Positions 21,450-64,000 of a stretch of 64,000 nucleotides of DNA are shown in pieces. Position 1 is the first letter of the stretch; each line of letters opens with the position of its first letter. The notes under the pieces were generated by a model. It was not told the DNA's origin, searched no databases, and was given only the letters and a program-made list of their open reading frames with translations. The translations under genes were made by a program, and so were the position numbers. The DNA is from Watersipora subatra (Eukaryota > Bryozoa > Gymnolaemata > Cheilostomatida > Watersiporidae), in NCBI RefSeq assembly GCF_963576615.1, contig NC_088711.1:62715248-62779247 (forward strand), read 5' to 3'.

Positions 21450-21972
21450 GTGGGTCTCTTTATAACTCGATGAAATGCAAAAGCTGTAGTAGCATATGAG
21501 ATTAGACTGATGTTTGTAATATAACTGTTTCTGTAGCCTGTTATTTTCTTATCATAGGTGTCATAGCGCTCGAAGTCTCAGAATCAGTTGCTGTTTTGAG
21601 TATTAAAAGTTTAAAAAAGTCATTGAGCGTTAAAAGACCAAGCATGCTTGATCTTTTAACTTTCTTGATGTTGTGGTTGAGCACCATTTAACAATTAGCT
21701 GTTAGGGATCCTAGTCGTGTAAAATATAGTTATAGGCAAGGAAACATATATCTCTACTTGCACACTAATTAACAACATTATCATTCATATCATATGGCTA
21801 AATGGATATTCTTTAGTGGGAATATGTTGCGAAAAACCTTGATAATAGCTTGAAATATTATTTGAAATAAGCTTGGGGAAGGTACTATATGTTTTTTTCA
21901 CAGATTTGAAGGCTTAAACATCTAGCATTCGTATAGGTTGTGCTTTGTCGATGTATTTTTCTAATGCTATAG

Positions 21973-30230: not shown

Positions 30231-30432
30231 GTGAGTCGATTGGTCAAAGTGTTCTTCATTTCAGCTAATCAGCTCCCATTATTTTAAGTATAGTTGATAG
30301 CGCTAGTAGTATAGTGAGAGCAGATCTACACATAATAGGCGGAGCTTAGGGAGCAGGAAGTGACATCACATCAGGATCTGTTTGATTGACAGTTGGGGGG
30401 CGGAGCTAGGCGGTGTTGAGTCATGGTGTGAG

Positions 30433-30885
30433 TCATGGCGAGCTGTGTGATTCGTGGTGCGAGTAATGGTGTGAGTTGGTTGGTGACGTCGCGGTGGTGG
30501 TGTCGGTGGCCGAGTGGTGAGTCGGGCCGCGAGACGATTCGCGGTTGTATTTGGGATTATCGGATTTCGTTGGCGTCTGGTAGAGGTCGCTCTTCCGTGC
30601 CGTTTCGGGGATTGACGGAGAGCTCGGTGGCGACGGGTTGACGGACGGTGGCGGATGGATTTCGAGATCGTCGGAGCTTGTATGTATTTTCTTTTTTCCG
30701 ATCCCGAATGAGAATGATGTGTCCGCGAACGAATATTCATTTTGATTGTAAACTTCATAAATTCTGAAATTATCTATCGCCTCTAAGTCTTCATCAGGAT
30801 TAAAACTTTTCAGAATTGACGGAGCATGCAATCTGAAGGAATTCAGAGAGAAATTAAAACAAAGATTATAAACTCTGTATATCAA
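30433..30885 (-). pseudogene. Gene 1 in the deleted arm of A (start codon lost)
   Basis: The frame encodes FRIYEVYNQNEYSFADTSFS and the Pro/Ser/Thr/His-rich tail, as in the intact copies at 38143 and 48657, but the ATG has become ATA and the 5' side is fused to the last codons of gene 2 through a deletion of about 572 bp. The frame nevertheless stays open for 150 codons with no ATG start. Transcription would run outward, toward the element tip. Confidence 0.6.
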
Positions 30886-31049
30886 GACAGTAATGAGTTA
30901 AGGAAATGATATTATGATTAAATTTTATATAGTTTATTTGATGATATATCATAGGGATTTAAACTTACTATCAATGGATATGTTATTGAATAAAAGTTTT
31001 GTATATAAAAATGCTAAAACATAATATAAAAAAGACTATTGAATTTCAT

Positions 31050-31100
31050 TCAATCCCAATTTTCTTCTTCTTCTTTCATTGTCGAATGAGAATGAACTGT
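31050..31100 (-). pseudogene. Orphan terminal exon of the WGYC gene, left arm of A
   Basis: A 51-nt exon copy encoding TVHSHSTMKEEEENWD and a stop, preceded on its strand by GATTGTAG. All upstream exons have been replaced by the 68-bp satellite in this element. Confidence 0.6.
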
Positions 31101-31164
31101 CTACAATCAAAACATACATTATTTTTAGTGAGATATAGTAAAAGTAAGACATACAATCAGATTA

Positions 31165-33655
31165 GATGTACATATACTTATTATCTGTACTTTAATAACA
31201 CTCCTGATGATCTCTTACTACACTTTATAATAATTGTACATATACTTATTCTCTGTACTTTATTAACACTCCTGATGATCTCTGACAGCACTTTATAATA
31301 ATTGTACATATACTTATTCTCTGTACTTTATTAACACTCTTGATGATCTTTTATAGCACTTTATAATAATTGTACATATACTTATTCTCTGTACTTTATT
31401 AATACTCCTGATGATCTCTTACAGCACTTTATAATAATTGTACACATACCTATTCTCAGTACTTTATTAACACTCCTGATGATCTTTTACAGCACTTTAG
31501 AATAATTGTACACATACTTATTCTCTGTACTTTATTAACACTCTTGATGATCTCTTACTACACTTTATAATAATTGTACACATACTTATTCTCTGTATTT
31601 TATTAACACTCTTGATGGACTTTTACTACACTTTATAATAATTGTACACATACTTATTCTCTGTACTTTTTTACCACACCTGATGATCTCTTACAGCACT
31701 TTATAATAATTGTACATATACTTATTCTCAGTACTTTATTAACACTCCTGATGATCTCTTACAGCACTTTATAATAATTGTACATATACTTATTCTCAGT
31801 ACTTTATTAACACTCCTGATGATCTCTTACAGCACTTTATAATAATTGTACACATACTTATTCTCAGTACTTTATTAACACTCCTAATGATCTCTTACAG
31901 TACTTTATAATAATTGTACATATACTTATTCTCTGTACTTTATTAACACTCTTGATGTTCTCTTACAGCACTTTATAATAATTGTACACATACTTATTCT
32001 CAGTACTTTATTAACACTCCTGATGATCTCTTAATACACTTTATAATAATTGTACATATACTTATTCTCTGTACTTTATTAACACTCTTGATGATCTCTT
32101 ACTACACTTTATAATAATTGTACATATACTTATTCTCAGTACTTTATTAACACTCCTGATGATCTCTTAATACACTTTATAATAATTGTACATATACTTA
32201 TTCTCTGTACTTTATTAACACTCTTGATGATCTCTTACTACACTTTATAATAATTGTACATATACTTATTCTCAGTACTTTATTAACACTCCTGATGATC
32301 TCTTACAGCACTTTATAATAATTGTACATATACTTATTCTCAGTACTTTATTAACACTCTTGATGATCTCTTACAGTACTTTATAATAATTGTACATATA
32401 CTTATTCTCTGTACTTTATTAACACTCCTGATGATCTCTTACAGCACTTTATAATAATTGTACATATACTTATTCTCTGTACTTTATTAACACTCTTGAT
32501 GATCTCTTAATACACTTTATAATAATTGTACATATACTTATTCTCTGTACTTTATTAACACTCTTGATGATCTCTTACTACACTTTATAATAATTGTACA
32601 TATACTTATTCTCAGTACTTTATTAACACTCCTGATGATCTCTTACAGCACTTTATAATAATTGTACATATACTTATTCTCAGTACTTTATTAACACTCT
32701 TGATGATCTCTTACAGTACTTTATAATAATTGTACATATACTTAATATCTGTACTTTATTAACACTCTTGATGAACTCTTACAGCACTTTATAATAATTG
32801 TACATATACTTATTATCTGTACTTTGTTAACACACCTGATGATCTTTTACAACACTTTATAATAATTGTACATATACTTATTCTCTGTACTTTATTAACA
32901 CTCTTGATGATCTCTTACAGCACTTTATAATAATTGTACATATACTTAATATCTGTACTTTATTTACACTCTTGATGAACTCTTACAGAACTTTATAATA
33001 ATTGTACATATACTTATTATCTGTACTTTAATAACACTCCTGATGATCTCTTACTACACTTTATAATAACTGTACATATACTTATTCTCTGTACTTTATT
33101 AACAATCCTGATGATCTCTGACAGCACTTTATAATAATTGTACATATACTTATTCTCTGTACTTTATTAACACTCTTGATGATCTCTTACAGCACTTTAT
33201 AATAATTGTACATATACTTATTCTCTGTACTTTATTAATACTCCTGATGTTCTCTTACAACACTTTATAATAATTGTACACATACTTATTCTCAGTACTT
33301 TATTAACACTCCTGATGATCTTTTACAGCACTTTAGAATAATTGTACACATACTTATTCTCTGTACTTTATTAACACTCTTGATGATCTCTTACTACACT
33401 TTATAATAATTGTACACATACTTATTCTCTGTATTTTATTAACACTCTTGATGGTCTTTTACTACACTTTATAATAATTGTACACATACTTATTATCTGT
33501 ACTTTTTTACCACACCTGATGATCTCTTACAGCACTTTATAATAATTGTACATATACTTATTCTCAGTACTTTATTAACACTCTTGATGATCTCTTACAG
33601 CACTTTATAATAATTGTACATATACTTATTCTCTGTACTTTATTAACACTCCTGA
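31165..33655 (+). repeat. 68-bp satellite, left array of A
   Basis: About 36 tandem copies of a unit containing TGTACATATACTTATTCTCT, GTACTTTATTAACACTCCTG and ATGATCTCTTACAGCACTTT. The period is 68 bp (for example TACATA at 31237 and 31305). Copies alternate small variants (CTCCTGAT/CTCTTGAT; TACATA/TACACA), suggesting local block duplications. Confidence 0.95.
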
Positions 33656-34330
33656 TCTTTAATTAAATTAAACTAGTAGACTTGCTAGCATCACATTCTA
33701 ACTGATATCTTCAAAATATGGAAAAGACTGTGAAGTGATATATAATACACAATCTTGCGATAAAATCATGACAAAATACTTTTGGTAAAGAGAACCCTGT
33801 TATCATTCATCAATCTTTGAGAGAATAAATGATACATACTACATTTATTCAAAACAATACATATATTCATTTTCTTTATATTCTCTTCAAAACGAATACT
33901 TACCTATACCTACCTTAGTACAATTCCTCCATCTGTCCATTGGGCCTTCTTTTTTTTTGCTCATTCCTCTATTTACTGGGCAAGAGACTGTTATGGAATG
34001 GTTAAGCCAAACCAAACAGGAGAATTCCATAGGCAAGCCTAGGAAAACACTCAGGTCGATTGCCAAGGCGCTTGTCCACACGACAGCCTGAACACAGCGA
34101 CACTCAACGAACTTAATCGCGAGTAGCCGGCTAACAGAATTCTAGCTGAAGCATACAAGCCTTATGGTATCAACGCTCGATTGCCCCAAAATCTCAATCT
34201 GTATATAAGTAGGCATCAGGAGCAGGACTAAGTGATGAAAAGGAAAATTACACTGAGCAAGCTTCTTATACAGAGTATTGAAGAATAGTGGCATATCCAA
34301 CAAAATCAATGAAGCGAAAATAGTAAACAG
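33656..34330. other. Conserved inner block of A, left arm
   Basis: Inverted copy of 35040-35705. It contains the frame LFTGQETVMEWLSQTKQENS ... ALVHTTA (+, about 33968-34090). It ends with a TATA box in the minus direction (CTGTATAAGAAGC, about 34260-34273) beside the TTTCGCGAAA array. The opposite strand is also open here (VFLGLPMEFSCLVWLNHSIT), so the coding strand is not certain. Confidence 0.45.
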
Positions 34331-35036
34331 ATTTTCGCGAAATTGAATTTCGCGAAAGTGAATTTCGCGAAATTACACATTATATATATTATATAGTCAA
34401 CTTTCGCGAAATTGGATTTCGCGAAATTACACATTATATATATTATATAGTCAACTTTCGCGAAATTGAATTTCGCGAAAGTGAATTTCGCGAAATCCAA
34501 TTTCGCGAAATTACACATATAATATATATGTGTAATTTCGCGAAATCCAATTTCGCGAAATTCACTTTCGCGAAATTCAATTTCGCGAAAGTTGACTATA
34601 TAATATATATAATGTGTAATTTCGCGAAATCCAATTTCGCGAAATTCACTTTCGCGAAATTCAATTTCGCGAAAGTTGACTATATAATATATATAATGTG
34701 TAATTTCGCGAAATTCACTTTCGCGAAATTCAATTTCGCGAAAGATGACTATATAATATATATAATGTGTAATTTCGCGAAATTCACTTTCGCGAAATTC
34801 AATTTCGCGAAAGTTGACTATATAATATATATAATGTGTAATTTCGCGAAATCCAATTTCGCGAAATTCACTTTCGCGAAATTCAATTTCGCGAAAGTTG
34901 ACTATATAATATATATAATGTGTAATTTCGCGAAATTCACTTTCGCGAAATTCAATTTCGCGAAAGATGACTATATAATATATATAATGTGTAATTTCGC
35001 GAAATTCACTTTCGCGAAATTCAATTTCGCGAAAAT
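34330..35036. repeat. TTTCGCGAAA palindrome arrays at the centre of A
   Basis: More than two dozen copies of the self-complementary 10-mer TTTCGCGAAA in groups of two to four at 15-bp spacing (linkers TTCAC, TTCAA, TCCAA). Groups are separated by GACTATATAATATATATAAT-type spacers. The array inverts at about 34523 within ACACATATAATATATATGTGT. The long FAKFNFAK-type frames on both strands come only from the 15-bp period. Confidence 0.95.
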
Positions 35037-35039
35037 CTG

Positions 35040-35705
35040 TTTACTATTTTCGCTTCATTGATTTTGTTGGATACGCCACTATTCTTCAATACTCTGTATA
35101 AGAAGCTTGCTCAGTGTAATTTTCCTTTTCATCACTTAGTCCTGCTCCTGATGCCTACTTATATACAGATTGAGATTTTGGGGCAATCGAGCGTTGATAC
35201 CATAAGGCTTGTATGCTTCAGCTAGAATTCTGTTAGCCGGCTACTCGCGATTAAGTTCGTTGAGTGTCGCTGTGTTCAGGCTGTCGTGTGGACAAGCGCC
35301 TTGGCAATCGACCTGAGTGTTTTCCTAGGCTTGCCTATGGAATTCTCCTGTTTGGTTTGGCTTAACCATTCCATAACAGTCTCTTGCCCAGTAAATAGAG
35401 GAATGAGCAAAAAAAAAAAGAAGGCCCAATGGACAGATGGAGGAATTGTACTAAGGTGGGTATAGGTAAGTATTCGTTTTGAAGAGAATATAAAGAAAAT
35501 GAATATATGTATTGTTTTGAATAAATGTAGTATGTATCATTTATTCTCTCAAAGATTGATGAATGATAACAGGGTTCTCTTTACCAAAAGTATTTTGTCA
35601 TGATTTTATCGAAAGATTGTGTATTATATATCACTTCACAGTCTTTTCCATATTTTGAAGATATCAGTTAGAATGTGATGCTAGCAAGTCTACTAGTTTA
35701 ATTTA
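35040..35705. other. Conserved inner block of A, right arm
   Basis: Mirror of 33656-34330. Beside the array is GTATAAGAAGC (about 35095), the TATA of an outward unit. ATGAGCAAAA at 35404 has an 11-A run (9 in the other arm) and is followed by TATAG|GTAAGTATT, a strong donor (GTAAGT at 35466-35471). The LFTG frame is on the minus strand here. Confidence 0.4.
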
Positions 35706-35710
35706 ATTAA

Positions 35711-37185
35711 AGATCAGGAGTGTTAATAAAGTACAGAGAATAAGTATATGTACAATTATTATAAAGTGCTGTAAGAGATCATCAAGAGTGTTAATAAAGT
35801 ACTGAGAATAAGTATATGTACAATTATTATAAAGTGCTGTAAGAGATCATCAGGTGTGGTAAAAAAGTACAGAGAATAAGTATGTGTACAATTATTATAA
35901 AGTGTAGTAAAAGACCATCAAGAGTGTTAATAAAATACAGAGAATAAGTATGTGTACAATTATTATAAAGTGTAGTAAGAGATCATCAAGAGTGTTAATA
36001 AAGTACAGAGAATAAGTATGTGTACAATTATTCTAAAGTGCTGTAAAAGATCATCAGGAGTGTTAATAAAGTACTGAGAATAAGTATGTGTACAATTATT
36101 ATAAAGTGCTGTAAGAGAACATCAGGAGTATTAATAAAGTACAGAGAATAAGTATATGTACAATTATTATAAAGTGCTGTAAGAGATCATCAAGAGTGTT
36201 AATAAAGTACAGAGAATAAGTATATGTACAATTATTATAAAGTGCTGTCAGAGATCATCAGGATTGTTAATAAAGTACAGAGAATAAGTATATGTACAAT
36301 TATTATAAAGTGTAGTAAGAGATCATCAGGAGTGTTATTAAAGTACAGATAATAAGTATATGTACAATTATTATAAAGTGCTGTAAGAGATCATCAAGAG
36401 TGTTAATAAAGTACTGAGAATAAGTATGTGTACAATTATTATAAAGTGCTGTAAGAGATCATCAGGATTGTTAATAAAGTACAGAGAATAAGTATATGTA
36501 CAATTATTATAAAGTGTAGTAAGAGATCATCAAGAGTGTTAATAAAGTACTGAGAATAAGTATATGTACAATTATTTTAAAGTGCTGTCAGAGATCATCA
36601 AGAGTGTTAATAAAGTACTGAGAATAAGTATATGTACAATTATTATAAAGTGCTGTAAGAGATCATCAGGTGTGGTAAAAAAGTACAGAGAATAAGTATG
36701 TGTACAATTATTATAAAGTGTAGTAAAAGTCCATCAAGAGTGTTAATAAAATACAGAGAATAAGTATGTGTACAATTATTATAAAGTGTAGTAAGAGATC
36801 ATCAAGAGTGTTAATAAAGTACAGAGAATAAGTATGTGTACAATTATTCTAAAGTGCTGTAAAAGATCATCAGGAGTGTTAATAAAGTACAGAGAATAAG
36901 TATATGTACAATTATTATAAAGTGCTGTAAGAGATCATCAGGAGTATTAATAAAGTACAGAGAATAAGTATATGTACAATTATTATAAAGTGCTGTAAAA
37001 GATCATCAAGAGTGTTAATAAAGTACAGAGAATAAGTATATGTACAATTATTATAAAGTGCTGTCAGAGATCATCAGGAGTGTTAATAAAGTACAGAGAA
37101 TAAGTATATGTACAATTATTATAAAGTGTAGTAAGAGATCATCAGGAGTGTTATTAAAGTACAGATAATAAGTATATGTACATCT
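35711..37185 (-). repeat. 68-bp satellite, right array of A
   Basis: About 21 copies of the same unit as 31165-33655, in inverse orientation (for example GAGATCATCAAGAGTGTTAA). Shorter than the left array, so the two arms have changed copy number independently. Confidence 0.95.
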
Positions 37186-37248
37186 AATCTGATTGTATGT
37201 CTTACTTTTACTATATCTCACTAAAAATAATGTATGTTTTGATTGTAG

Positions 37249-37299
37249 ACAGTTCATTCTCATTCGACAATGAAAGAAGAAGAAGAAAATTGGGATTGA
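37249..37299 (+). pseudogene. Orphan terminal exon of the WGYC gene, right arm of A
   Basis: Identical peptide to 31050-31100 (TVHSHSTMKEEEENWD, stop), preceded by TTTTGATTGTAG. Upstream exons are absent. Confidence 0.6.
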
Positions 37300-37455
37300 A
37301 TGAAATTCAATAGTCTTTTTTATATTATGTTTTAGCATTTTTATATACAAAACTTTTATTCAATAACATATCCATTGATAGTAAGTTTAAATCCCTATGA
37401 TATATCATCAAATAAACTATATAAAATTTAATCATAATATCATTTCCTTAACTCA

Positions 37456-38079
37456 TTACTGTCTTGATATACAGAGTTTATAATCTTTGTTTAATTTCTC
37501 TCTGAATTCCTTCAGATTGCATGCTCCGTCAATTCTGAAAAGATTTAATCCTGATGAAGACTTAGAGTTCATGTAAATCTCACTTCGATCCAATATCATG
37601 AGAGCTGGTGTCAACCATTGAAATGATGAGGGAATGTTATACTTTTGAGGATCGATGATCGAACATAATACCACACGCTCTCCCTTACGTTCAACGAAGA
37701 ATTGCAACGCAATCTCACAATTGTCATTTTCTTCAGACTTATTTGCTTGTATTACTTCTAACGAAGCTGGAATATCCAAAACTTTTAGATCAATCCATTT
37801 CCATGGTTCTTGCATTTCCTCGGTTTTAAAAACTGTTGCAATAGGTGACGTAATTTTCTCATCTCCTTCCATATAATTTTCCTTGGATTCGAATATCCGC
37901 TTTACTACCGAACTTTTTCTTGATGATCTTCGTAATGACGTAGTTCTGTTCAATCTAGACTTGGTTGGTCTTCTATACTCTCTTTGTTTCATATTCAATT
38001 GGGAAGTTCTTTCAGAAATAATGTCGATATTCATACTATTGGAAGTTGACTCCTCAGAAGCTCCAGTAACAATCAACAC
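37456..38079 (-). CDS. Gene 2 of element A, basic protein of unknown function
   Basis: Open for 207 codons. The first ATG is at 38034, giving 192 residues; the codons before it follow a possible acceptor, TTATTAG. The N-terminal third is rich in Arg, Lys and Ser (KQREYRRPTKSRLNRTTSLR), suggesting nuclear or nucleic-acid contact. The C-terminal two thirds look globular: PWKWIDLKVLDIPASLEVIQ, then CEIALQFFVERKGERVVLCS, SFQWLTPALMILDRSEIYMN and LKEFREKLNKDYKLCI. I recognise no family. It differs from the copy in B by only three residues (I/L, D/E, N/K), and neither has a stop. It faces gene 1 head-to-head. Confidence 0.6.
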   Translation of the reverse strand: MLIVTGASEESTSNSMNIDIISERTSQLNMKQREYRRPTKSRLNRTTSLRRSSRKSSVVKRIFESKENYMEGDEKITSPIATVFKTEEMQEPWKWIDLKVLDIPASLEVIQANKSEENDNCEIALQFFVERKGERVVLCSIIDPQKYNIPSSFQWLTPALMILDRSEIYMNSKSSSGLNLFRIDGACNLKEFREKLNKDYKLCISRQ

Positions 38080-38142
38080 TAACTAATAATACTTCATCAA
38101 TTTATACATTATCTTTAAAAAAGTAGTGGAACCATAACAGCG

Positions 38143-38487
38143 ATGGATAATTTCAGAATTTATGAAGTTTACAATCAAAATGAATATTCGTTCGCGGACA
38201 CATCATTCTCATTCGGGATCGGAAAAAAGAAAATACATACAAGCTCCGACGATCTCGAAATCCATCCGCCACCGTCCGTCAACCCGTCGCCACCGAGCTC
38301 TCCGTCAATCCCCGAAACGGCACGGAAGAGCGACCTCTACCGGACGCCAACGAAATCCGATAATCCCAAATACAACCGCGAATCGTCTCGCGGCCCGACT
38401 CACCACTCGGCCACCGACACCACCACCGCGACGTCACCAACCAACTCACACCATTACTCGCACCACGAATCACACAGCTCGCCATGA
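38143..38487 (+). CDS. Gene 1 of element A, Pro/Ser/His-rich protein
   Basis: 114 codons from ATG: MDNFRIYEVYNQNEYSFADT, then SFSFGIGKKKIHTSSDDLEI, then a low-complexity tail (PPPSVNPSPPSSPS ... NSHHYSHHESHSSP). GC content rises sharply and CpG is frequent, unlike the surrounding AT-rich DNA; this also keeps two other frames open (130 codons at 38162 and 68 on the other strand). It is transcribed toward the element tip from a short divergent promoter shared with gene 2. Function unknown. Confidence 0.5.
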   Translation: MDNFRIYEVYNQNEYSFADTSFSFGIGKKKIHTSSDDLEIHPPPSVNPSPPSSPSIPETARKSDLYRTPTKSDNPKYNRESSRGPTHHSATDTTTATSPTNSHHYSHHESHSSP

Positions 38488-38615
38488 CTCACACCATGAC
38501 TCAACACCGCCTAGCTCCGCCCCCCAACTGTCAATCAAACAGATCCTGATGTGATGTCACTTCCTGCTCCCTAAGCTCCGCCTATTATGGGTAGATCTGC
38601 TCTCACTATACTACT
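38488..38615. repeat. Terminal 130 bp of A (right TIR tip)
   Basis: GC-box-like GGGGGGCGGAGC, a CRE-like TGACATCACATCA and CTAGGCGGAG words lie within the last 130 bp and recur in all four arm tips. The terminal 40 bp of left and right arms differ at one position. Confidence 0.7.
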
Positions 38616-39060
38616 AGCGCTAATCTTTCAAATAGCTAATCAGGAAACAAATGGGTTCTTTCTAAATCTAATTATAATTAATCATTAGACACGCCCTCAA
38701 ACTTCAATTGTTACTCTGACCACTAGTATTGTTATAATTGAGCTTGTTATCGAACAGTTTCAGGTTTTTATAAAAGTTAGGACGTTTTACTTATGGATGA
38801 AACCGCTACTGACATTTTAGTATAATGTCTATCACAAGGATTCAATCAAGATTTATACAATATTTCAATAAACTTTTAACACAGCCATGATGACCTGGGC
38901 TACTTGTCACAATAGCGTTTAAGGATGATTTGTCTATTGATACACTCATATTGTCTGTGAGTGGAACTTGGTCTAGCTGTAAGCATTTACTATATGTCCA
39001 TCAGCTGTATGTAATATATGAGAGCACCTGCACACCTTAGTCACACTTTGTTGTAAACAG

Positions 39061-39120
39061 GAGCCCAAAGGAGAGGCAGAAACTGATAGGAGACGCAGGC
39101 GTTCTGAAGGCTATGAATGA
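39061..39120 (+). CDS. WD40-repeat protein, terminal exon
   Basis: After the acceptor TTTGTTGTAAACAG the phase-0 frame reads EPKGEAETDRRRRRSEGYE and stops with TGA, joining directly to ...QTKKR of the exon ending at 30230. The result is a short charged tail after the propeller. AATAAA at 39506-39511 may be the poly(A) signal. Splicing across element A would therefore keep the protein intact. Confidence 0.55.
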   Translation, partial: EPKGEAETDRRRRRSEGYE

Positions 39121-44400: not shown

Positions 44401-44462
44401 AGCTTTTCACTATGTCTTCACACAGTTTTGACCAAAATTGCTATTTGACAGCTCTCTGCTCT

Positions 44463-44529
44463 CTATCTATCTATATATATTTGTATATATATATATATAC
44501 ATATTTGTATATATATATATATACATATT

Positions 44530-44576
<47 letters not shown>

Positions 44577-44640
44577 ATATATGTATATATATATACATAT
44601 ATATATATAAACATACATATATGTATATATATATATAAAT
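44463..44640. repeat. (TA)n-rich microsatellite
   Basis: Alternating TA tract with ACATATTTGTATAT interruptions at the 3' end of the LINE; the frames it opens on both strands are artefacts. Confidence 0.9.
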
Positions 44641-44698
44641 TGTTTCCTCACCCCGGATACCCCGTATGGGTGGTAAATTCTGCTGTAACTCAGGTCTC

Positions 44699-46845: not shown

Positions 46846-48312
46846 TGCACAGGGCTGCTGAACATACTAGCAAATATTTAGCATGTTTAATTGTGATGAG
46901 GACAGACAAGATTGCAGAATGATAAAAATGGCTTAACCTAGTGGTTACACATGCATGTTTGTAGACTTGCAATTTGCATGTCATTAGCTGAAATCCAGTG
47001 TGAAACAATTTTCTATTAATAATTTTTTGATCGCTGGAACTGGACACATGGTTGACAGACAAATAAACAAATATACATATATATATGTATATACAAATGT
47101 ATACCGTAAAACCTCTAATTGAATGCCATGGCACTCTATTTTTTAACCTTTCTTTTATAGAGGCTGTCCATTGGAGGCGGCGTTCAAATAGAGGCTGGCG
47201 GTGTATTTTTCAAATGGCTCGTCAGAATTTTGGGAAGATAAATCTAGCCTTATTACGAGCGAAGCGAACGTCGCCTATATTTTGCCTTCATTTTTCGGTG
47301 GAGCTGTATTAAACCTTTTGGATGCAATAAACTGCTAACTTACCTCCAACTTGTCAAAGATCTCTTAATAAATATGCGTCGAGAAACTGAGAAATCTCTT
47401 TACCAGCTTATATCTATTGCTTGCCATTGGCCTGCGATGATATTATAGCCTGTGACCTTCTTTGCACTTTGTTGGCATTTTCAATTTTTAATTTATTCTA
47501 AATTTGAAGACATATTTTTATTTTATATCTCTATTTATTGTTTATTTATTGTTGCATAAAAGCTCATTGCACTCATTGATATGTTTGCTACAGTTCGCAG
47601 CCAAAACTAGCTTTTCATGTGCAATAGAAGTGGAGTTATGAGCATCGGTCCATTGTAAGCCGTGATAAGATAGCCACCAGGCTGCTAGAAAATAACATGC
47701 TGTAAATCTGCATATTTATAAGTTACATCATGATAATCCATCAAATGATACAAATATATATTCATGAACACGTGACTTAAACGAACCATAATTATATTAC
47801 ATGCAGAAACAAATAATAACATTTTTAAAACAAAAATATTTCCACCCATTGCTCGGATAGCTGCTTTCTGATTGATTGTTGCTTTTGATGGAACGAACAT
47901 CTTTTAGCTGTCCAATACTTTCCACAATATCTTTTGGCTTCAACTCTTCATCTGCACTGCTGAACTAGTCGATATTGACGTCCAAACATTTTTTTGGCCA
48001 AGCAAAACTTTCATGTGCTGCATTTATCACTAATGCAACGCGTAAAGGTTTTGCTCACAATGAACGTAATCTTTGGTCCAAAACTTGCAAACCGGTTTTT
48101 ATATGCATGTCCTTCGAAGTATTAGGACCGCGTTAAACAAAAAACTACTATTAGCCTGAGACAGTTAGTAGTTATTTCTATGGCAGTAGTATAGTGAGAG
48201 CAGATCTACACACACTAGGCGGAGCTTAGGGAGCAGGAAGTGACATCACATCAGGATCTGTTTGATTGACAGTTGGGGGGCGGAGCTAGGCGGTGTTGAG
48301 TCATGGTGTGAG

Positions 48313-48657
48313 TCATGGCGATCTGTGTGATTCGTGGTGCGAGTAATGGTGTGAGTTGGTTGGTGACGTCGCGGTGGTGGTGTCGGTGGCCGAGTGGTGA
48401 GTCGGGCCGCGAGACGATTCGCGGTTGTATTTGGTATTATCGGATTTCGTTGGCGTCCGGTAGAGGTCGCTCTTCCGTGCCGTTTCGGGGATTGACGGAG
48501 AGCTCGGTGGCGACGGGTTGACGGACGGTGGCGGATGGATTTCGAGATCGTCGGAGCTTGTATGTATTTTCTTTTTTCCGATCCCGAATGAGAATGATGT
48601 GTCCGCGAACGAATATTCATTTTGATTGTAAACTTCATAAATTCTGAAATTATCCAT
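48313..48657 (-). CDS. Gene 1 of element B (intact arm)
   Basis: 114 codons, same protein as 38143-38487 with a few substitutions (DNTKYN for DNPKYN, HRSP for HSSP near the end). ATG at 48657 lies 64 bases from the open frame of gene 2. Outward transcription toward the tip. Low-complexity, CpG-rich tail. Confidence 0.5.
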   Translation of the reverse strand: MDNFRIYEVYNQNEYSFADTSFSFGIGKKKIHTSSDDLEIHPPPSVNPSPPSSPSIPETARKSDLYRTPTKSDNTKYNRESSRGPTHHSATDTTTATSPTNSHHYSHHESHRSP

Positions 48658-48765
48658 CGCTGTTATGGTTCCACTACTTTTTTAAAGATAATGTATAAAT
48701 TGATGAAGTATTATTAGTTAGTGTTGATTGTTACTGGAGCTTCTGAGGAGTCAACTTCCAATAGT
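48658..48765. promoter_or_regulatory. Divergent promoter between genes 1 and 2
   Basis: Only about 108 bp separate the two ATGs. TATAAAT at 48694-48700 faces gene 2, about 66 bases before its ATG (48766). The same spacer is present in A (38035-38142). Confidence 0.45.
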
Positions 48766-49344
48766 ATGAATATCGACATTATTTCTGAAAGAACTTCCCA
48801 ATTGAATATGAAACAAAGAGAGTATAGAAGACCAACCAAGTCTAGATTGAACAGAACTACGTCATTACGAAGATCATCAAGAAAAAGTTCGGTAGTAAAG
48901 CGGTTATTCGAATCCAAGGAAAATTATATGGAAGGAGATGAGAAAATTACGTCACCTATTGCAACAGTTTTTAAAACCGAGGAAATGCAAGAACCATGGA
49001 AATGGATTGATCTAAAAGTTTTGGATATTCCAGCTTCGTTAGAAGTAATACAAGCAAATAAGTCTGAAGAAAATGACAATTGTGAGATTGCGTTGCAATT
49101 CTTCGTTGAACGTAAGGGAGAGCGTGTGGTATTATGTTCGATCATCGAACCTCAAAAGTATAACATTCCCTCATCATTTCAATGGTTGACACCAGCTCTC
49201 ATGATATTGGATCGAAGTGAGATTTACATGAACTCTAAGTCGTCATCAGGATTAAAACTTTTCAGAATTGACGGAGCATGCAATCTGAAGGAATTCAGAG
49301 AGAAATTAAACAAAGATTATAAACTCTGTATATCAAGACAGTAA
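48721..49344 (+). CDS. Gene 2 of element B, basic protein of unknown function
   Basis: Same protein as 37456-38079 in A (207 open codons; ATG at 48766, 192 residues) with three residue differences. Arg/Lys-rich N-terminus, then a globular part with SFQWLTPALMILDRSEIYMN and a C-terminal LKEFREKLNKDYKLCISRQ. Runs inward, toward the element centre. Its last codons survive in the deleted arms as LFRIDGACNLKEF, followed by a one-base frameshift. Confidence 0.6.
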   Translation: MLIVTGASEESTSNSMNIDIISERTSQLNMKQREYRRPTKSRLNRTTSLRRSSRKSSVVKRLFESKENYMEGDEKITSPIATVFKTEEMQEPWKWIDLKVLDIPASLEVIQANKSEENDNCEIALQFFVERKGERVVLCSIIEPQKYNIPSSFQWLTPALMILDRSEIYMNSKSSSGLKLFRIDGACNLKEFREKLNKDYKLCISRQ

Positions 49345-49500
49345 TGAGTTAAGGAAATGATATTATGATTAAATTTTATATAGTTTATTTGATGATATAT
49401 CATAGGGATTGAAACTTACTATCAATGGATATGTTTTTGAATAAAAGTTTTGTATATAAAAATGCTAAAACATAATATAAAAAAGACTATTGAATTTCAT

Positions 49501-50716
49501 TCAATCCCAATTTTCTTCTTCTTCTTTCATTGTCGAATGAGAATGAACTGTCTACAATCAAAACATACATTATTTTCAGTGAGATATAGTAAAAGTAAGA
49601 CATACAATCAGATTAGATCATTCATTCAAACTAAAAATCAAATATAATGTAATACTTACTGAAGAAGAAGAAGATCCATCCTTTTTCTGAATGGAATCTT
49701 CCTGTTGAGATACGGGAGCCTGCAATTGCAATGATTACAGTCAGGATGGATTACTATAACCTTGCTGAGATAGTAGACTCCACATTCACAATGGACTCCA
49801 ACTTAAATTGTAAATTTCAATTGCATTAGTCATCGAATCATAGAATGATATGCAAGATGTAATACAGACAGAATAGGATATGCAATCAGCTAGAGTAGGA
49901 CATACAGACAATAAGAAAAACAAATATGTTACATCACATAGTCAGACTAGGACACACAGACAGAGGAGGATATTCAGTTAAAATAAAGAAATAAATATAA
50001 TGTACTACTTACTGAAGATTCAAATTCATAAAGCCTTCTCCGAAAAGGACTATATTTAGTTCGGTGATGCCCAGGATCCTACAATTGCATTGATTATAGT
50101 CAGAGTAGAACATGCAGACAAATTAAAACACAGTCAGGTCTTACTTTGAATTTCAATTCCAACTCCTTTTGTTTTAAAGTGGAGTTATACAAAATATTAA
50201 TTACTGTTTTCACAGATTGATACTCATTTTAACATTCCTACATACCAATTGGAGTGAATTTTGTTGAATGTATTTGATCTTTAGTTACATGTTTTATCAT
50301 TATACAACGATATTAGACGAAATAAATATAATGTAATACTTACTTTTAAAGTCAATGTAACATCGAAGTTACGAAAGAACTCCTCTCTTTGCTGCTGCAT
50401 GACCAATGATTTCTACAATAATTTCCAAAATTACTTTGTATAATTTAATAGTTTCATTTAAGCAAACCCTATAATTCGAAATATATTTAATATGTAGTTT
50501 ATATTCTCAAGTTTCCTTTAATCAAAAATATAATTTAGTAAAATATTATAATGTAGTACTTACTTTCTTTTGAAGCTTGATCTTGAATCGAAAAGCCTTC
50601 TGTTTTTCAGGATCTACCTCTCTACCCCAAGGGCAGTAGCCCCATATCTCAACACACGTGTCGATGCATTTTGTCTGAGTTAGGAGTCTATCCACGTTTT
50701 TGTCTCAAGCACACAT
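49501..50716 (-). pseudogene. WGYC gene, left arm of B: five phase-0 exons, nonsense at codon 4
   Basis: Exons on the minus strand: 50716-50564 (51 codons), 50412-50344 (23), 50078-50013 (22), 49719-49660 (20) and 49551-49501 (17 with stop). Each has consensus borders (usually TTGTAG or TTGCAG, and GTAAGTA), every length is a multiple of three and every junction is phase 0. The peptide contains TKCIDTCVEIWGYCPWGREV, SLVMQQQREEFFRNFDVTLT, GHHRTKYSPFRRRLYEFESS, PVSQQEDSIQKKDG and TVHSHSTMKEEEENWD. The C-x3-C-x6-C core suggests metal or disulfide binding. Codon 4 is TGA, where the right-arm copy has AGA. TATATAAG lies about 50 bases upstream of the ATG. Family unknown. Confidence 0.6.
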
Positions 50717-50847
50717 TGTAAACTATTATAAATAAAATGAGATGAAAAACTTATTCTTTCTCGTTGCTTATATAGTAAGCAGAATCAATATTATGGTTGA
50801 TTAAACTTGTGTAATTTATGATCACGAAATTGTAAAATCAGCTAAAC

Positions 50848-51165
50848 AGATTTCGCGAAATTCAATTTCGCGAAAGTTGACTATATAATATATATGATGT
50901 GAAATTTCGCGAAATCCAATTTCGCGAAAGTTGACTATATAATATATGATGTGAAATTTCGCGAAATCCAATTTCGCGAAATTCACTTTCGCGAAATTCA
51001 ATTTCGCGAAAGTTGACTATATAATATATATGATGTGAAATTTTGCGAAATCCAATTTCGCGAAATTCACTTTTCGAGAAATTGAATTTCGCGAAAGTTG
51101 ACTATATAATATATATGATGTGAAATTTCGCGAAATCCAATTTCGCGAAGTTCACTTTCGCGTTG
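50848..51165. repeat. TTTCGCGAAA array, left half of B
   Basis: At least a dozen TTTCGCGAAA copies (a few mutated, such as TTTTGCGAAA and TTTTCGAGAAA) with the same 15-bp spacing and GACTATATAATATATATGAT spacers. It lies immediately upstream of the minus-strand WGYC promoter. Confidence 0.92.
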
Positions 51166-51169
51166 ATGT

Positions 51170-54100
51170 ACAAGTGAGCCGTGATTTATAAATGTATATA
51201 TAATAATAAAATGTGAGTAAGATAAAAGCTACTGAAGATACAATAAACAACGCTAGGATTGTGCTAGTCTATGTTAATATACAAGTGAGCAGTGATTATA
51301 ATTGTATATAATAATAAAATGTGAGTAAGATAAAAGCTAGGGTTGTGCTAGTCCATGTTAATGTACAAGTGAGCAGTGATTATAAATGTATATATAATAA
51401 TAAAATGTGAGTAAGATAAAAAGCTACTGAAGATAGAATAAACAAAGCTAGGATTGTGCTAGTCCATGTTAATATACAAGTGAGCAGTGATTATAAATGT
51501 ATATATAATAATAAAATGTGAGTAAGATAAAAGCTAGGGTTGTGCTAGTCCATGTTAATGTACAAGTGAGCAGTGATTATAAATGTATATATAATATTAA
51601 AATGTGAGTAAGATAAAATCTACTAAAGATACAATAAGCAAAACTAGGATTGTGCTAGGCCATGTTGATATACAAGTGAGCAATGATTATAAATGTATAT
51701 ATAATAATAAAATGTGAGTAAGATAAAAGCTAGGGTTGTGCTAGTCCATGTTAATGTACAAGTGAGCAGTGATTATAAATGTATATATAATAATAAAATG
51801 TGAGTAAGATAAAAGCTACTCAAGATAGAATAAACAAAGCTAGGATTGTGCTAGTCCGTGTTAATATACAAGTGAGCAGTGATTATAAATGTATATATAA
51901 TAATAAAATGTGAGTAAGATAAAAGTTACTGAAGATACAATAAACAGAGCTAGGATTGTGCTAGTCTATGTTAATATACAAGTGAGCAGCGAATATAAAT
52001 GAATATATAATAATAAAACGTGAGTAAGATAAAAGATACTGAAGATACAATAAACAAAGCTAGGATTGTGCTAGGCCATGTTGATATACAAGGGAGCAGT
52101 GATTATAATTGTATATATAATAATAAAACGTGAGTAAGATAAAAGATACTGAAGATACAATAAACAAAGCTAGAATTGTGCTAGACCCTGTTGATGTACA
52201 AGTGAGCAATGATTATAAATGTATATATAATAAAATGTGAGTAAGATAAAAGCTACTGAAGATACAATAAACAAAGTTAGGATTGTGCTAGGCCATGTTA
52301 ATATACAAGTGAGCAGGGATTATAAATGTATATATAATAATAAAATGTGAGTAAGATAAAATCTACTAAAGATACAATAAGCAAAACTAGGATTGTGCTA
52401 GGCCATGCTGATATACAAGTGAGCAATGATTATAAATGTATATATAATAATAAAATGTGAGTAAGATAAAAGTTACTGAAGATACAATAAACAGAGCTAG
52501 GATTGAGCTAGTCTATGTTAATATACAAGTGAGCAGCGAATATAAATGAATATATAATAATAAAACGTGAGTAAGATAAAAGCTACTGAAGATACAATAA
52601 ACAAAGCTAGGATTGTGCTAGACCATGTTGATGTACAAGTGATCAATGATTATAAATGTATATATAATAATAAAATGTGAGTAAGATAAAATCTACTAAA
52701 GATACAATAAGCAAAACTAGGATTGTGCTAGGCCATGCTGATATACAAGTGAGCAATGATTATAAATGTATATATAATAATAAAATGTGAGTAAGATAAA
52801 AGTTACTGAAGATACAATAAACAGAGCTAGGATTGAGCTAGTCTATGTTAATATACAAGTGAGCAGCGAATATAAATGAATATATAATAATAAAACGTGA
52901 GTAAGATAAAAGCTACTGAAGATACAATAAACAAAGCTAGGATTGTGCTAGACCATGTTGATGTACAAGTGATCAATGATTATAAATGTATATATAATAA
53001 TAAAATGTGAGTGAGATAAAAGCTACTGAAGATACAATAAACAAAGCTAGGATTGTGCTAGTCCATGTTGATATACAAGTGAGCAGTGATTATAAATGTA
53101 TATATAATATTAAAATGTGAGTAAGATAAAAACTACTAAAAATACAATAAGCAAAACTAGGATTGTGCTAGGCCATGTTGATATACAAGTGAGCAATGAT
53201 TATAAATGTATATATTATAATAAAATGTGAGTAAGATAAAAGCTAGGGTTGTGCTAGTCCATGTTAATGTACAAGTGAGCAGTGATTATAAATGTATATA
53301 TAATAATAAAATGTGAGTAAGATAAAAGCTACTCAAGATAGAATAAACAAAGCTAGGATTGTGCTAGTCCGTGTTAATATACAAGTGAGCAGTGATTATA
53401 AATGTATATATAATAATAAAATGTGAGTAAGATAAAAGTTACTGAAGATACAATAAACAGAGCTAGGATTGTGCTAGTCTATGTTAATATACAAGTGAGC
53501 AGCGAATATAAATGAATATATAATAATAAAACGTGAGTAAGATAAAAGATACTGAAGATACAATAAACAAAGCTAGGATTGTGCTACACCCTGTTGATGT
53601 ACAAGTGAGCAATGATTATAAATGTATATATAATAAAATGTGAGTAAGATAAAAGCTACTGAAGATACAATAAACAAAGTTAGGATTGTGCTAGGCCATG
53701 TTAATATACAAGTGAGCAGTGATTATAAATGTATATATAATAATAAAATGTGAGTAAGATAAAATCTACTAAAGATACAATAAGCAAAACTAGGATTGTG
53801 CTAGGCCATGCTGATATACAAGTGAGCAATGATTATAAATGTATATATAATAATAAAATGTGAGTAAGATAAAAGCTACTGAAGATACAATCAAAGCTAG
53901 GATTGTACTAGTCCATGATGATATACAAGGGAGCAGTGATTATAAATATATATAATAATAAAATGTGAGTAAGATAAAAGCTACTGAAGATACAATAAAC
54001 AAAAACTAGGATTGTACTAGTCTATGTTGGTGTACAAGTGAGCAATGATTATAAATGTATATATAATAATAAAATGTGAGTGAGATAAAAGCTACTGAAG

Positions 54101-54185
54101 ATACAATAAACAAAGCTAGGACTGTGCTAGTCCATGTTAATATACAAGTGAGCAGTGATTATAAATATATATAATAATAAAATGT
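51170..54185 (+). repeat. 110-bp satellite in B
   Basis: About 28 copies of a unit with GCTAGGATTGTGCTAGTCCA, TGTTAATATACAAGTGAGCA, TATATAATAATAAAATGTGA and AGCTACTGAAGATACAATAA. A shorter variant lacks the last 27 or so bases. Blocks of several units are themselves repeated (for example 52319-52659 resembles 52672-53012). Confidence 0.93.
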
Positions 54186-54690
<505 letters not shown>

Positions 54691-55019
54691 ACCACGTTAA
54701 TTGTTGACCAAAACGATTATTCTGCCCAAGTTAATTCAAACGGATTTTCTAAAAAATCCGATATACCGTTAGTATTTAAGCAATATCTCAAAAAATGAAA
54801 ACATATATCGTTTTACTTTTAAATGTATCTTATTCAGAACAAAATTCTCCACAAGATAGGTGTAAAATTGTTTAGCAACTCTTACTCTCACAAAATTTCT
54901 GACGCTTTTCTTTGCGTTGAACAAACTCGGTGTGTTTCTTATTGTCATGACGATAACGGTCTGGTTTTACCGTTTTTGAAAAAATAATTAGAAATGGAAT
55001 TGTTGAACCAAAAATTTAG
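54691..55019. other. Upstream flank of the protease relic
   Basis: Short broken frames only; any catalytic-His part of the protease would have been here but is not readable. Confidence 0.35.
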
Positions 55020-55217
55020 TTGCACATCATTGGTAACAAGGTTGTTTCATTGGAAACAATTCTTTCAACAACATGTGGAGATTACTGTCTTCTCTTTGCA
55101 ATATTTTGGAGCAGAGGATGTTCAATAGAAGATTTTCTAACAGTTATGCTAAAAATTTCTGAAACAGATACACGAGATCATGTAGTTCGAAAAACTATAC
55201 TAGATAGATATGATTGA
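55020..55217 (+). pseudogene. Adenain-like cysteine protease relic (Polinton PRO)
   Basis: 65 codons, no ATG (TTG at the left edge). The core STTCGDYCLLFAIFWSRG followed by CSIEDFL fits the C-terminal catalytic-Cys region of adenovirus/Polinton C5 proteases, where Cys sits in (S/T)xCGxYC and is followed by an aromatic helix and RG-S---FL. The tail RDHVVRKTILDRY also fits. The His and Asp/Glu parts of the triad are not in frame upstream, so this is a decayed 3' part. In Polintons this enzyme is linked to virion-type maturation. It is the strongest single hint of the element's class. Confidence 0.55.
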
Positions 55218-55867
55218 AATGAAAAAAAATTAGTAAAAGTCTTAATAACGAAGAAAATGAAGGTGTTGACAATGTACATATTCAAGGAACTTCCCAAATT
55301 GTTAAATTACTAGAAGATCTGACATAAATTTTTTTTTTCTATATTTTACAATTGAATATACATATATACTTTATATCGAAATAAAGTTGGTAACAAATAC
55401 AACCGAATATTATTTACTTTTTGATATAAGTTTTATATATTGATATACTCACACTGAGTTGGAGCTATCCTCAAAATAATCCACATATTAATCCATGTAT
55501 GCCCCTTTACTAGTTCATCATCTTCATCTATTTACTGGTCGAGAAACTGTTATGGAATGGTTAAGCCAAACCAAACAGGAGAATTCCATAGGTAAACCTA
55601 GGAAAACAATCAGGTCGAATGCCAAGGCGCTTGTCCACACAACAGCCCCTGAAAACAGCGACACTCAACGAACTTAATCGCGAGTAGCCGGCTAACAGAA
55701 TTCTAGCTGAAGCATACAAGCCTTATGGTATCAACACTCGATCGACCCAAATTCTCAAATATAAGTAGGTATCAAGAGATGGTTAATGAGGCAGAATATT
55801 CCATCAGATTATGCAACGCTTATATAGTGAATTGAAGAATGATGGGTGTGTCCAAAGGAATTAATGA
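55218..55867 (+). other. LFTG block of B
   Basis: Homologue of 33656-34330 in A. The frame 55531-55677 reads LFTGRETVMEWLSQTKQENS, continues to ALVHTTAPENSDTQRT and stops. Five of the eight base differences from A are synonymous in this frame, which hints at real coding. A short frame ending KLLEDLT precedes it at about 55325. On the minus strand CACTATATAAGC (about 55818-55829) is a TATA box beside the array. Confidence 0.4.
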
Positions 55868-56190
55868 AGCGAAAATAGTAAACAGATTTTCGCGAAATTG
55901 AATTTCGCGAAAGTGAATTTCGCGAAATTGAATTTCGCGAAATTACACATTATATATATTATATAGTCAACTTTCGCGAAAGTGAATTTCGCGAAAGTGA
56001 ATTTCGCGAAATTGGATTTCGCGAAATTGGATTTCGCGAAATTACACATATATATTATATAGTCAACTTTCGCGAAATTGAATTTCGCGAAAGTGAATTT
56101 CGCGAAATTGGATTTCGCGAAATTACACATATATATTATATAGTCAACTTTCGCGAAATTGAATTTCGCGAAAGTGAATTTCGCGAAAAC
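55868..56190. repeat. TTTCGCGAAA array, right half of B
   Basis: Thirteen or so palindromic 10-mers in the usual 15-bp groups with TATATTATATAGTCAAC spacers. It is bracketed by a minus-strand TATATAAG (about 55820) and a plus-strand TATAAAA (56249-56255). Confidence 0.93.
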
Positions 56191-56299
56191 TGTTTATATA
56201 TATCATTAGATCACAAAATTATTGAACCGCGACAACACTTCTACTTGTTATAAAACCTTCGAGCGAATATGCCTTTTCAATTCAGTTCATAACTTCACA

Positions 56300-57124
56300 A
56301 TGAGTACCAGAGACAACAGAAAAAGGAAATTTCAAGAATGATTACAATGTGTAGATAAATGTGTGAAGCGATGGGGTTACTGCTCTCATGGAATGGAAAT
56401 AAGCGATCGGAAGCGAAAAGCTTGTCAATTTCTCTTACGTGAAAAGTTCTATCAAGATCTCAACGAAAGATTACGGTTTACAGTAAGTACTACAAATTCA
56501 ATCTAGATGTTATGTAGGAATGATACAATGAATCTTCTCTTCTGAGTAGTAACTATGTGTTCTAGGCTGATTGTATTCATTGCAATTGCAAACTCCAATA
56601 TCTTAGCAAAGTGTATGTTATATCCCTACTCAGATTAAAACAGATTATTTTAACTGAATATCCTCCTCTGTCTGTGTGTCCTAGTCTGACTATGTGATGT
56701 AACATATTTGTTTTTCTTATTGTCTGTATGTCCTACTCTAGCTGATTGCATATCCTATTCTGTCTGCATTACATCTTGCATATCATTCTATGATTCGATG
56801 ACTAATGCAATTGAAATTTACAATTTAAGTTGGAGTCCATTGTGAATGTAGAGTCTACTATCTCAGCAAGGATATAGTAAACCATCCTGACTGTAATCAT
56901 TGCAATTGCAGGCTCCCGTATCTCAACAGGAAGATTCCATTCAGAAAAAGGATGGATCTTCTTCAGTAAGTATTACATTATATTTGATTTTTAGTTTGAA
57001 TGAATGATCTAATCTGATTGTATGTCTTACTTTTACTATATCTCACTGAAAATAATGTATGTTTTGATTGTAGACAGTTCATTCTCATTCGACAATGAAA
57101 GAAGAAGAAGAAAATTGGGATTGA
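56300..57124 (+). pseudogene. WGYC gene, right arm of B: nonsense at codon 14
   Basis: Exons 56300-56482 (61 codons from ATG), 56912-56965 (18) and 57074-57124 (17 with stop), all phase 0 with GTAAGT donors. The first exon encodes MSTRDNRKRKFQE, then TGA at codon 14, then LQCVDKCVKRWGYCSHGMEI and a longer basic stretch. It aligns without gaps to the left-arm copy over the first 28 codons (Cys at 17, 21 and 28). The two middle exons of the left copy are absent or unrecognisable here. TATAAAA is about 45 bases upstream of the ATG. Confidence 0.58.
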
Positions 57125-57288
57125 ATGAAATTCAATAGTCTTTTTTATATTATGTTTTAGCATTTTTATATACAAAACTTTTATTCAATAACATATCCAT
57201 TGATAGTAAGTTTAAATCCCTATGATATATCATCAAATAAACTATATAAAATTTAATCATAATATCATTTCCTTAACTCATTACTGTC

Positions 57289-57741
57289 TTGATATACAGA
57301 GTTTATAATCTTTGTTTTAATTTCTCTCTGAATTCCTTCAGATTGCATGCTCCGTCAATTCTGAAAAGTTTTAATCCTGATGAAGACTTAGAGGCGATAG
57401 ATAATTTCAGAATTTATGAAGTTTACAATCAAAATGAATATTCGTTCGCGGACACATCATTCTCATTCGGGATCGGAAAAAAGAAAATACATACAAGCTC
57501 CGACGATCTCGAAATCCATCCGCCACCGTCCGTCAACCCGTCGCCACCGAGCTCTCCGTCAATCCCCGAAACGGCACGGAAGAGCGACCTCTACCGGACG
57601 CCAACGAAATCCGATAATCCCAAATACAACCGCGAATCGTCTCGCGGCCCGACTCACCACTCGGCCACCGACACCACCACCGCGACGTCACCAACCAACT
57701 CACACCATTACTCGCACCACGAATCACACAGCTCGCCATGA
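57289..57741 (+). pseudogene. Gene 1 in the deleted arm of B (start codon lost)
   Basis: Same configuration as 30433-30885: ATG changed to ATA and fused in frame to the inverted end of gene 2 (SFRLHAPSILKSFNPDEDLE). The shared breakpoint shows that the deleted arm is an ancestral trait of both elements. Confidence 0.6.
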
Positions 57742-58925
57742 CTCACACCATGACTCAACACCGCCTAGCTCCGCCCCCCAACTGTCAATCAAACAGATCC
57801 TGATGTGATGTCACTTCCTGCTCCCTAAGCTCCGCCTAGTGTGTGTAGATCTGCTCTCACTATACTACTTATGGCGTTGCTTTCAAATTTCCATCTACCA
57901 TCACACATTTAAACCGGTTTTTATACTTTTTATACTGTTACTTGGTAGTATTATGACCTCGTTAAACAAGGAACCACTATTAGCCTGAGACAGTAATTAT
58001 TTCTATAGCGTTGCTCTGAAAGTCCATCTAGCATTGTGAATTTAAGCTGTTTTTTATATATGTAGGCTACTTCAAAGTAAAAAGACTGCGTTAGGTAAAG
58101 AGCTACCACTAGCCTGAGACCGTTATTGATTATTTCTATGGTGTTGCTTTTAAAGTTTTAACGGAAAATACGAAAAGCTTTGGAATTATTCAACAAGAGA
58201 ATTAATTGTTGTTGATATACACGATTCATTATTAATAAGATTTTGTGGACTGTCAATTTTACTGATCAGCTGATATTATAGGCTCATAAAGATCAAATAA
58301 TGTCAAAGTGGCAGTCAAATGGAGGTGGCGTTCAACTGCAGGGTGGTGGTCAATTGGAGATGGCGTTCAATTAGAGATTTTACTGTATATATGTATATAT
58401 AAATGTATGTATATATGTAGATATATATTTTTTTTAAATATGTATACTGTATCACGTATACACATAAATCTCAATGTTTGTCATTTGTTTACTTGTCTGT
58501 CAGCCATGTATCCAGTTCTAGCGATCAGAAAATTAAGAATAGAAAATTGTTTCACACTGGATTTCAGCTAATGACATGCAAATTGTAAGTCTGCAAACAT
58601 GCATGTGTAACCATTAGGTTAAGCCATTTTTATTATTCTGCACATCTTGTCTGTCCTTATCACAATTACACACGCTAAATATTTGCTAGTATGTTCAGCA
58701 GTCCTGTGCACCATGAGAGATCATCATGAGTGATCAGTTTATGGGGAATTATCTATGTTATGGTTTTGAGTGATGCAATGGTAGCATTTCAATTCTGCAG
58801 GAAAGCATTTATACACTACAATACAGTGTTCAATTGGCTTTACTAAAGAATAAACTGGGCACATGCTTATTACACATGCCAACCTTTTATGGCTTCCTTT
58901 TATTAGCGTCATGTGTGTAGCCATA

Positions 58926-63714: not shown

Positions 63715-64000
63715 GTGGGTCTCTTTATAATTCGGTAAAATGCCAAAGCTGTAATAGCATATGAGATTAGACTGATGTTTGTATTAGAAATGTATCTGTA
63801 GCCTGTTACTTTCTTATCATAGGTGCTGTAGCGCTCGAAGTCTCAGAATCATTTGCTGTTTTGAGTCTTGAAAGTTTAAAAAATTTGTTGAGATTAAAAG
63901 ATCAAGCATGCTTGGTCTTTTAACTTTCTTAATGTTGTGGTTGAGCACCATTTAACAATTAGCTGGTATAGATCTTAGTTGTGTAAAATATAGTTATAAG

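Follow-up and report, generated by a model that had tools for sequence, protein, structure and literature searches.

The 64,000-nucleotide stretch of the Watersipora subatra genome analysed here (the window; NCBI RefSeq assembly GCF_963576615.1, contig NC_088711.1, positions 62,715,248 to 62,779,247 of the forward strand) contains two large elements, A and B (Table 1), with ends resembling those of Polintons/Mavericks, and raises the questions of what machinery copies and integrates such elements and how one of them, A, became a palindrome over most of its length. The answer favoured here, to which a probability of roughly 0.8 is given, is that A and B belong to a young non-autonomous family, which relies on Polintons of the same genome, encoding a protein-primed polymerase (PolB) and an rve integrase, to copy and integrate it in trans. 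As neither PolB nor an rve integrase is found within them, A and B are filed as non-autonomous derivatives or dependants of Polintons, and not as Polintons.

Ends, copies and the Polintons of the same genome

All four ends of A and B carry the tip AGTAGTATAG, which agrees with the ending (AGT)2 or (AG)3 of Polinton/Maverick terminal inverted repeats (TIRs), and each element is flanked by a duplication of exactly 6 bp (agcgct for A and tatggc for B). These tips, duplications and coordinates are exactly those given in an earlier note on this DNA, and the inverse orientation which it assigned to the two elements is borne out by a 572-bp segment located in the right arm of A and in the left arm of B. 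The extended tip of 46 bases occurs four times in the window and in none of 100 shuffles, while only three of the 175 AGTAGT...ACTACT pairs less than 30 kb apart in the window are flanked by equal 6-mers, namely A, B and one other.

The genome searched (783.7 Mb in 239 contigs) contains 308 exact copies of the 22-base tip (160 forward and 148 reverse; none for the reversed-pattern control). Among the 100 of these tips that were listed, 42 adjacent +/- pairs span 7.9–15.1 kb with a median of 9978 bp, 38 of them within 7.9–11.8 kb, and 16 tips are left unpaired by this rule. The 25-base tip has no match in the viral contigs or in the genome contigs searched. Thirteen further full copies (E1–E13) were taken from pairs with both tips among 40 scored, a choice that favours well-kept copies. 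The 6-bp duplication, claimed in the earlier note for A and B, is present without exception in all 15 copies; equal 6-bp flanks were found by script in 12 of the 13, and in E8, which has a changed tip, TTTAGA was read by eye on both sides. A duplication of 7 bp is excluded for twelve copies by script and for A, B and E8 by eye.

The 15 copies fall into three classes of architecture, comprising four B-like copies (B, E1, E3 and E4), eight copies in which the B-type short-arm side leads into 110-bp and 68-bp arrays that extend to the long arm (E5–E11 and E13), and three copies with a palindromic core (A, E2 and E12). Every copy has one short and one long arm, and the 572-bp long-arm segment is present in 15 of 15, interrupted in E10, whose long arm contains an insertion of about 4.5 kb (L019:697-5215). 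Two positions beside this segment are fixed by arm type (15 versus 15), for which reason the idea of a short-arm tract transferred between A and B as a patch was dropped. A segment with a protease-like open piece occurs in 12 of the 15 copies, in pieces 96–99% identical to B (incomplete in E5 and split in two in E1 and E4). The segment common to the core of A and to B is about 84% alike and the tips about 99%, suggesting that termini and interiors have different histories. An element with two short or two long arms never occurs among the 15, though arm exchange seems frequent.

Candidates for the machinery acting in trans are encoded in the same genome, which has 35 matches over the cut-off to protein-primed PolB (PF03175), as against 0 of 14 control genomes. 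The 30 loci given fall into two clades, with 24 loci in one and 6 in the other. In the regions preceding three PolB frames of the larger clade, similarity starts at AGTAGTATG between L058 and L060, 2 bases inside between L059 (ATTAGTATG) and L060, and about 21 bases inside between L058 and L059. A search for Polinton TIRs, with 40 of 143 candidates scored, gave many pairs approximately 14–16 kb apart, and in the ten pairs that were read over 60 bases per end, AGTAGTATG stands at each of the 20 ends and every pair has a 6-bp duplication. Seven of these pairs (C6, C9, C5, C7:7.3 Mb, C2:75.6 Mb, C10 and C8) have a PolB match within their coordinates, and the integrase was read in one of the seven, C6. 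In this unit PolB, rve, a TIR pair 14.9 kb apart and the duplication GATGGA are combined, and a 1.4-kb piece near its far end contains a frame of 272 aa whose product has an rve integrase core (expectation value, E, 3.1e-11) and is similar to PFV integrase and other PDB chains named integrase.

The tips of the family and of these Polintons share their first 8 bases and the same 6-bp duplication length. According to PMC8097293, (AGT)2//(ACT)2 is also the commonest end motif of vertebrate Mavericks. The Polinton affinity proposed in the earlier note is therefore supported by the 15 of 15 6-bp duplications, by the (AGT)2//(ACT)2 ends and by the same-genome Polintons, which agree in the first 8 bases and in duplication length. 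Its statement that A and B lack PolB and integrase also holds, as two PolB pieces and one integrase from the same genome gave no match at E 0.01 when compared by tblastn with the window and the 13 copies (L009–L026); for the capsid gene, which it also gave as missing, no search aimed at it was made. The autonomous PolB/integrase relative with the family's tips which it envisaged was not found among the PolB loci on C1–C5 and the 100 tips listed, the same-genome Polintons matching the first 8 bases only.

The TIR pairs at G000:C11:29967802-29982848, C2:68616420-68631822 and C7:11472554-11487717, with no listed PolB, may have a degraded or replaced interior or represent another dependent family. 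Long frames of a second PF03175 PolB clade are located at L057 (G000:C5:27998000-28000500), L027, L028, L031, L053, L054 and L056, and no AGTAGT or ACTACT is present within 2.5 kb upstream of L057.

The palindromic core and variants common to both arms

The left half of A aligns with the reverse complement of its right half with 3177 identities over 3205 bp (99.1%), the unaligned parts being the one-sided 572-bp segment together with 15 units of satellite and roughly 320 bp in the central array. The identity is fairly even from tip to centre (98.1–99.8% in the outer six blocks and 94.7% in the innermost 131 bp). The earlier description of A as palindromic over nearly its whole length is accordingly correct, and that of B fails for the element as a whole, since B is mirrored only in the outer 1.2 kb (right arm) or 1.8 kb (left arm) and in its TTTCGCGAAA arrays. 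A palindrome running through the whole element is found in three of the 15 copies examined and does not describe the family. The 68-bp arrays of A are mirrored unit for unit, with 21 mismatches in 1428 after allowing for 15 units lost on the right, while 2000 shuffles of the unit order never gave fewer than 64 mismatches, and the 68-bp array had thus expanded before it was mirrored. The dyad of A sits within an array of TTTCGCGAAA, a perfect, self-complementary palindrome with 60 sites in the window, of which 33 are in A, 27 in B and none elsewhere, and as a single strand this array folds far better than its 20 shuffles.

Any two of the six half-cores of A, E2 and E12 differ at 5–10 of 676 columns, and the core was therefore most simply formed once and then multiplied. 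Compared in register, the satellite arrays are 99.05% alike in A, 97.2% in E2 and 95.8% in E12, so that the register has in part been lost in E12. The self-complementary TTTCGCGAAA array is the probable site at which the core originated, through fold-back or head-to-head joining. Fold-back of a single strand and joining of two molecules both fit the palindrome, the order and place of the event being our reconstruction, and head-to-head joining explains better why the halves of A end in different arm types.

Among the 30 arms of the 15 copies, 56 variant states are confined to one arm and nine occur in exactly two, of which eight are common to both arms of one element, as against a chance expectation of 15/435 (3.4%). 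These eight include one state in both arms of A, one in both arms of B, and three at adjacent bases of one element which may be a single event; the ninth is common to the long arms of B and E3. The mean within-element arm distance (4.13) is below that of all 10000 re-pairings of short with long arms, and the signal sits in the outer 480 bp (P 0.004 and 0.0002). Such sharing is expected if an element exists as a linear molecule with ends that anneal or recombine; chromosomal gene conversion would also give it.

Explanations weighed

By analogy with adenoviruses, Polintons are thought to replicate through protein-primed copying of a linear form. If the favoured explanation is correct, A, B and their relatives would pass through a linear DNA form, on which a protein-primed polymerase, using the AGTAGT repeat to jump back, would begin copying from each end, and which would be joined to the chromosome by the Polinton integrase. 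The palindromic core would have arisen once, when a strand ending in the TTTCGCGAAA array folded back or two molecules joined head to head, and would then have spread, with tips being exchanged among family members. In PMC8097293 the end repeat of Mavericks is given a role in the jumping-back step of protein-primed replication.

Several observations weigh against this explanation. Beyond the 8 bases the TIR of the family is unlike that of the Polintons, and three of the ten Polinton-type TIR pairs (C11, C2:68.6 Mb and C7:11.5 Mb) enclose no PolB match among those listed. No PolB locus with a family tip was found, the nearest listed tip being 150 kb away from the 11 PolB loci on C1–C5, a distance based on the 100 tips listed and with one of the 11 loci lying beyond the listed stretch. 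B has a five-exon gene, whereas intact vertebrate Maverick copies are reported as intronless in PMC8097293. The difference between short and long arms is unlike the product of a simple single-molecule fold-back, and the linear intermediate is inferred, none having been observed. The inner part of the arms gives no clear sharing (P 0.07), a gap at 767–769 is common to five arms of five elements, and the mean distance between short arms of different elements (3.99 differences) is no greater than that between both arms of an element, so that the sharing between ends is best regarded as a local addition to a background of recent amplification. With only 8 bases in common, no PolB near the tips listed and neither PolB nor integrase inside, the structure of the ends argues strongly for dependence on Polintons and does not demonstrate it.

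That the family is instead a cut-and-paste TIR family of another superfamily making 6-bp duplications, with ends similar to those of Polintons by chance, is unlikely. The shortness of the common sequence and the lack of PolB and integrase in the copies speak for it, but the common bases include the (AGT)2 motif that is commonest at vertebrate Maverick ends, they recur together with the duplication length in 10 of 10 Polinton-type TIR pairs of the same genome, and variants are common to both ends of one element. Similarly improbable is an autonomous lineage, in which the 208-aa, 114-aa and five-exon genes would supply their own mobilisation function. The 208-aa frame has a full-length relative with 70% identity in another record (P0002, source given only as 'ena'), and most of the frame lies in the 572-bp segment that is kept in every copy with the interruption in E10; however, none of the three proteins matches a polymerase, an integrase or any family at the curated cut-off.

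Inverted duplication in the chromosome, or gene conversion between inverted insertions, might have made the palindromic core in place of replication of a free molecule, and this origin is given a minor though appreciable chance. Inverted family neighbours exist, as A and B illustrate, and both arms of A alone depart from the rest at core column 311, but the same core is present at three places (A on C4, E2 on C7 and E12 on C5), and every one of these insertions is flanked by a 6-bp duplication of its own. The core was therefore propagated within the mobile unit, a result that does not show the site of its first origin. An assembly or read artefact, in which a read is fused with the reverse complement of itself, would also produce a palindrome. 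It is very improbable here, as the ends of the palindrome coincide exactly with tips bearing target duplications, its flanks are unlike each other, its arms are distinguished by substitutions and by whole satellite units, and two further copies carry the core.

A further reading, offered tentatively, is that the elements form a lineage of Polinton satellites in the germline, with defective-interfering and satellite viruses as counterparts. Such a lineage would have kept genes of its own, would outnumber the PolB Polintons on whose machinery it draws (308 tips as against 35 PolB matches) and would owe its palindromic form to fold-back replication. Symmetric recombinant and left-end-duplication adenovirus genomes are palindromic molecules in which one replication end is present twice, on either side; they come from laboratory virus stocks and are not a germline family, and homology is not claimed. 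No paper on symmetric recombinant (SYREC-type) adenovirus genomes was found. No palindromic or satellite-bearing Polinton family is described in the titles and abstract beginnings of the open-licence literature searched, and an entry for one in Repbase or Dfam may exist.

The family resembles Polintons/Mavericks in its (AGT)2//(ACT)2 ends, 6-bp duplications, long TIRs and the first 8 bases common with Polintons of the same genome, and differs from them in its size of mostly 7.9–11.8 kb, its gene with exons and introns, its satellite-filled interior and the fixed polarity of its short and long arms. It also has the long TIRs with internal tandem repeats that characterise foldback elements, as the 68-bp arrays are mirrored in A and are present on both sides in E2 and E12. 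Galileo, a foldback element of the P superfamily with a 7-bp target duplication, differs from the family, which has Polinton-like ends instead. The duplication lengths of Mutator- or P-type foldbacks are not observed, all 15 copies having 6 bp. Very long TIRs with tandem repeats and a variable middle are common to the family, Galileo, FB and Tetris of Drosophila virilis, and for Tetris duplications of 8–10 bp and a Mutator affinity suggested by the authors are given in PMC4079207. If the favoured explanation is correct, Polintons can support high-copy dependants, and satellite DNA can have a source that travels inside virus-like elements. A large young family with traceable satellite units and variants common to both ends would then be a chromosomal record of how linear molecules of the protein-primed kind are copied and recombine.

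Modules, genes and neighbouring features

Table 1. Features of elements A and B, numbered from the first letter of the window.
Feature	Position	Strand	Remarks
Element A	30305..38615	-	palindromic-core class, long arm at right end; from tips, duplication and self-alignment
Element B	48185..57869	+	110-bp satellite class, long arm at left end
Target duplication agcgct, A left	30299..30304	.	right copy 38616-38621
Target duplication tatggc, B left	48179..48184	.	right copy 57870-57875
476-bp tip module	30305..30780; 38140-38615; 48185-48660; 57394-57869	+; -; +; -	
387-bp second arm module	30781..31167	+	A short arm; also 37182-37567, 49233-49618, 57007-57393
572-bp segment	A 37568..38139; B 48661-49232	A -	long arm only
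208-aa open frame, A	37456..38082	-	long arm
208-aa open frame, B	48718..49344	+	long arm
114-aa Pro/Ser-rich frame	38143..38487; B 48313-48657	+; -	from ATG, long-arm tip, divergent from 208-aa frame
68-bp satellite, A	31167..33656	+	36.6 units
68-bp satellite, A	35713..37182	-	21.6 units; mirrors left array minus 11 + 4 units
Unique core segment, A	33657..34330	+	mirrored at 35037-35712
TTTCGCGAAA array, A	34333..35034	.	33 sites; holds dyad centre near 34523
Five exon-like pieces, B left arm	49501..50674	-	
TTTCGCGAAA array, B left	50851..51162	.	
110-bp satellite, B	51162..54690	+	inverted junction near 54200
Segment with protease-like open piece, B	54693..55440	+	open piece about 55020-55216; whole or part in 12/15 copies
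TTTCGCGAAA array, B right	55888..56188	.	
Right-arm counterpart of five-exon gene, B	56300..57124	+	three exon-like pieces, stop in first

The earlier note had stated that the arms hold whole genes, and this applies to one arm per element, which contains the complete 208-aa frame, and not to both. Besides P0002, the protein search with this frame gave only P0001 (98%), which is the window's own protein or a near copy. No family above the cut-off, no PDB match and no relative in the viral or prokaryote contigs was found for it, and its predicted structure (mean pLDDT 42) gave no fold match at E 0.001. The 114-aa frame has one match in the protein search (P0003, identical over 93% of the query), located on a 997-base contig. 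The five exon-like pieces in the left arm of B may form a gene, as every length is divisible by 3, the four inner donors are GTAAGT and all acceptors are AG; no start codon was found for it.

The open piece in the right part of B, described earlier as an adenain-like protease relic, does contain residues which by eye are like those of adenovirus-like proteases, a resemblance only. The relic itself did not gain support, as nothing was found with this piece in Pfam, NCBIfam, PDB, protein or viral-contig searches, the protein search having length limits that left out full-length proteases.

Outside the elements, the window contains an open frame with a DDE_Tnp_4 transposase domain (611-1795), which we take to be Harbinger-like, and a 203-bp satellite of about ten copies with sub-periods of 29, 58 and 87 (11762-13817). 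Two gene copies have a weak match to DUF294 nucleotidyltransferase (19689-21473 and 61939-63738), and a long TPR frame follows the first of them (21973-23364). Between A and B, retrotransposon frames with RNase H and H2C2 integrase domains, presumably Gypsy-like, are found together with an 836-aa RVT_1 frame (42073-47209).

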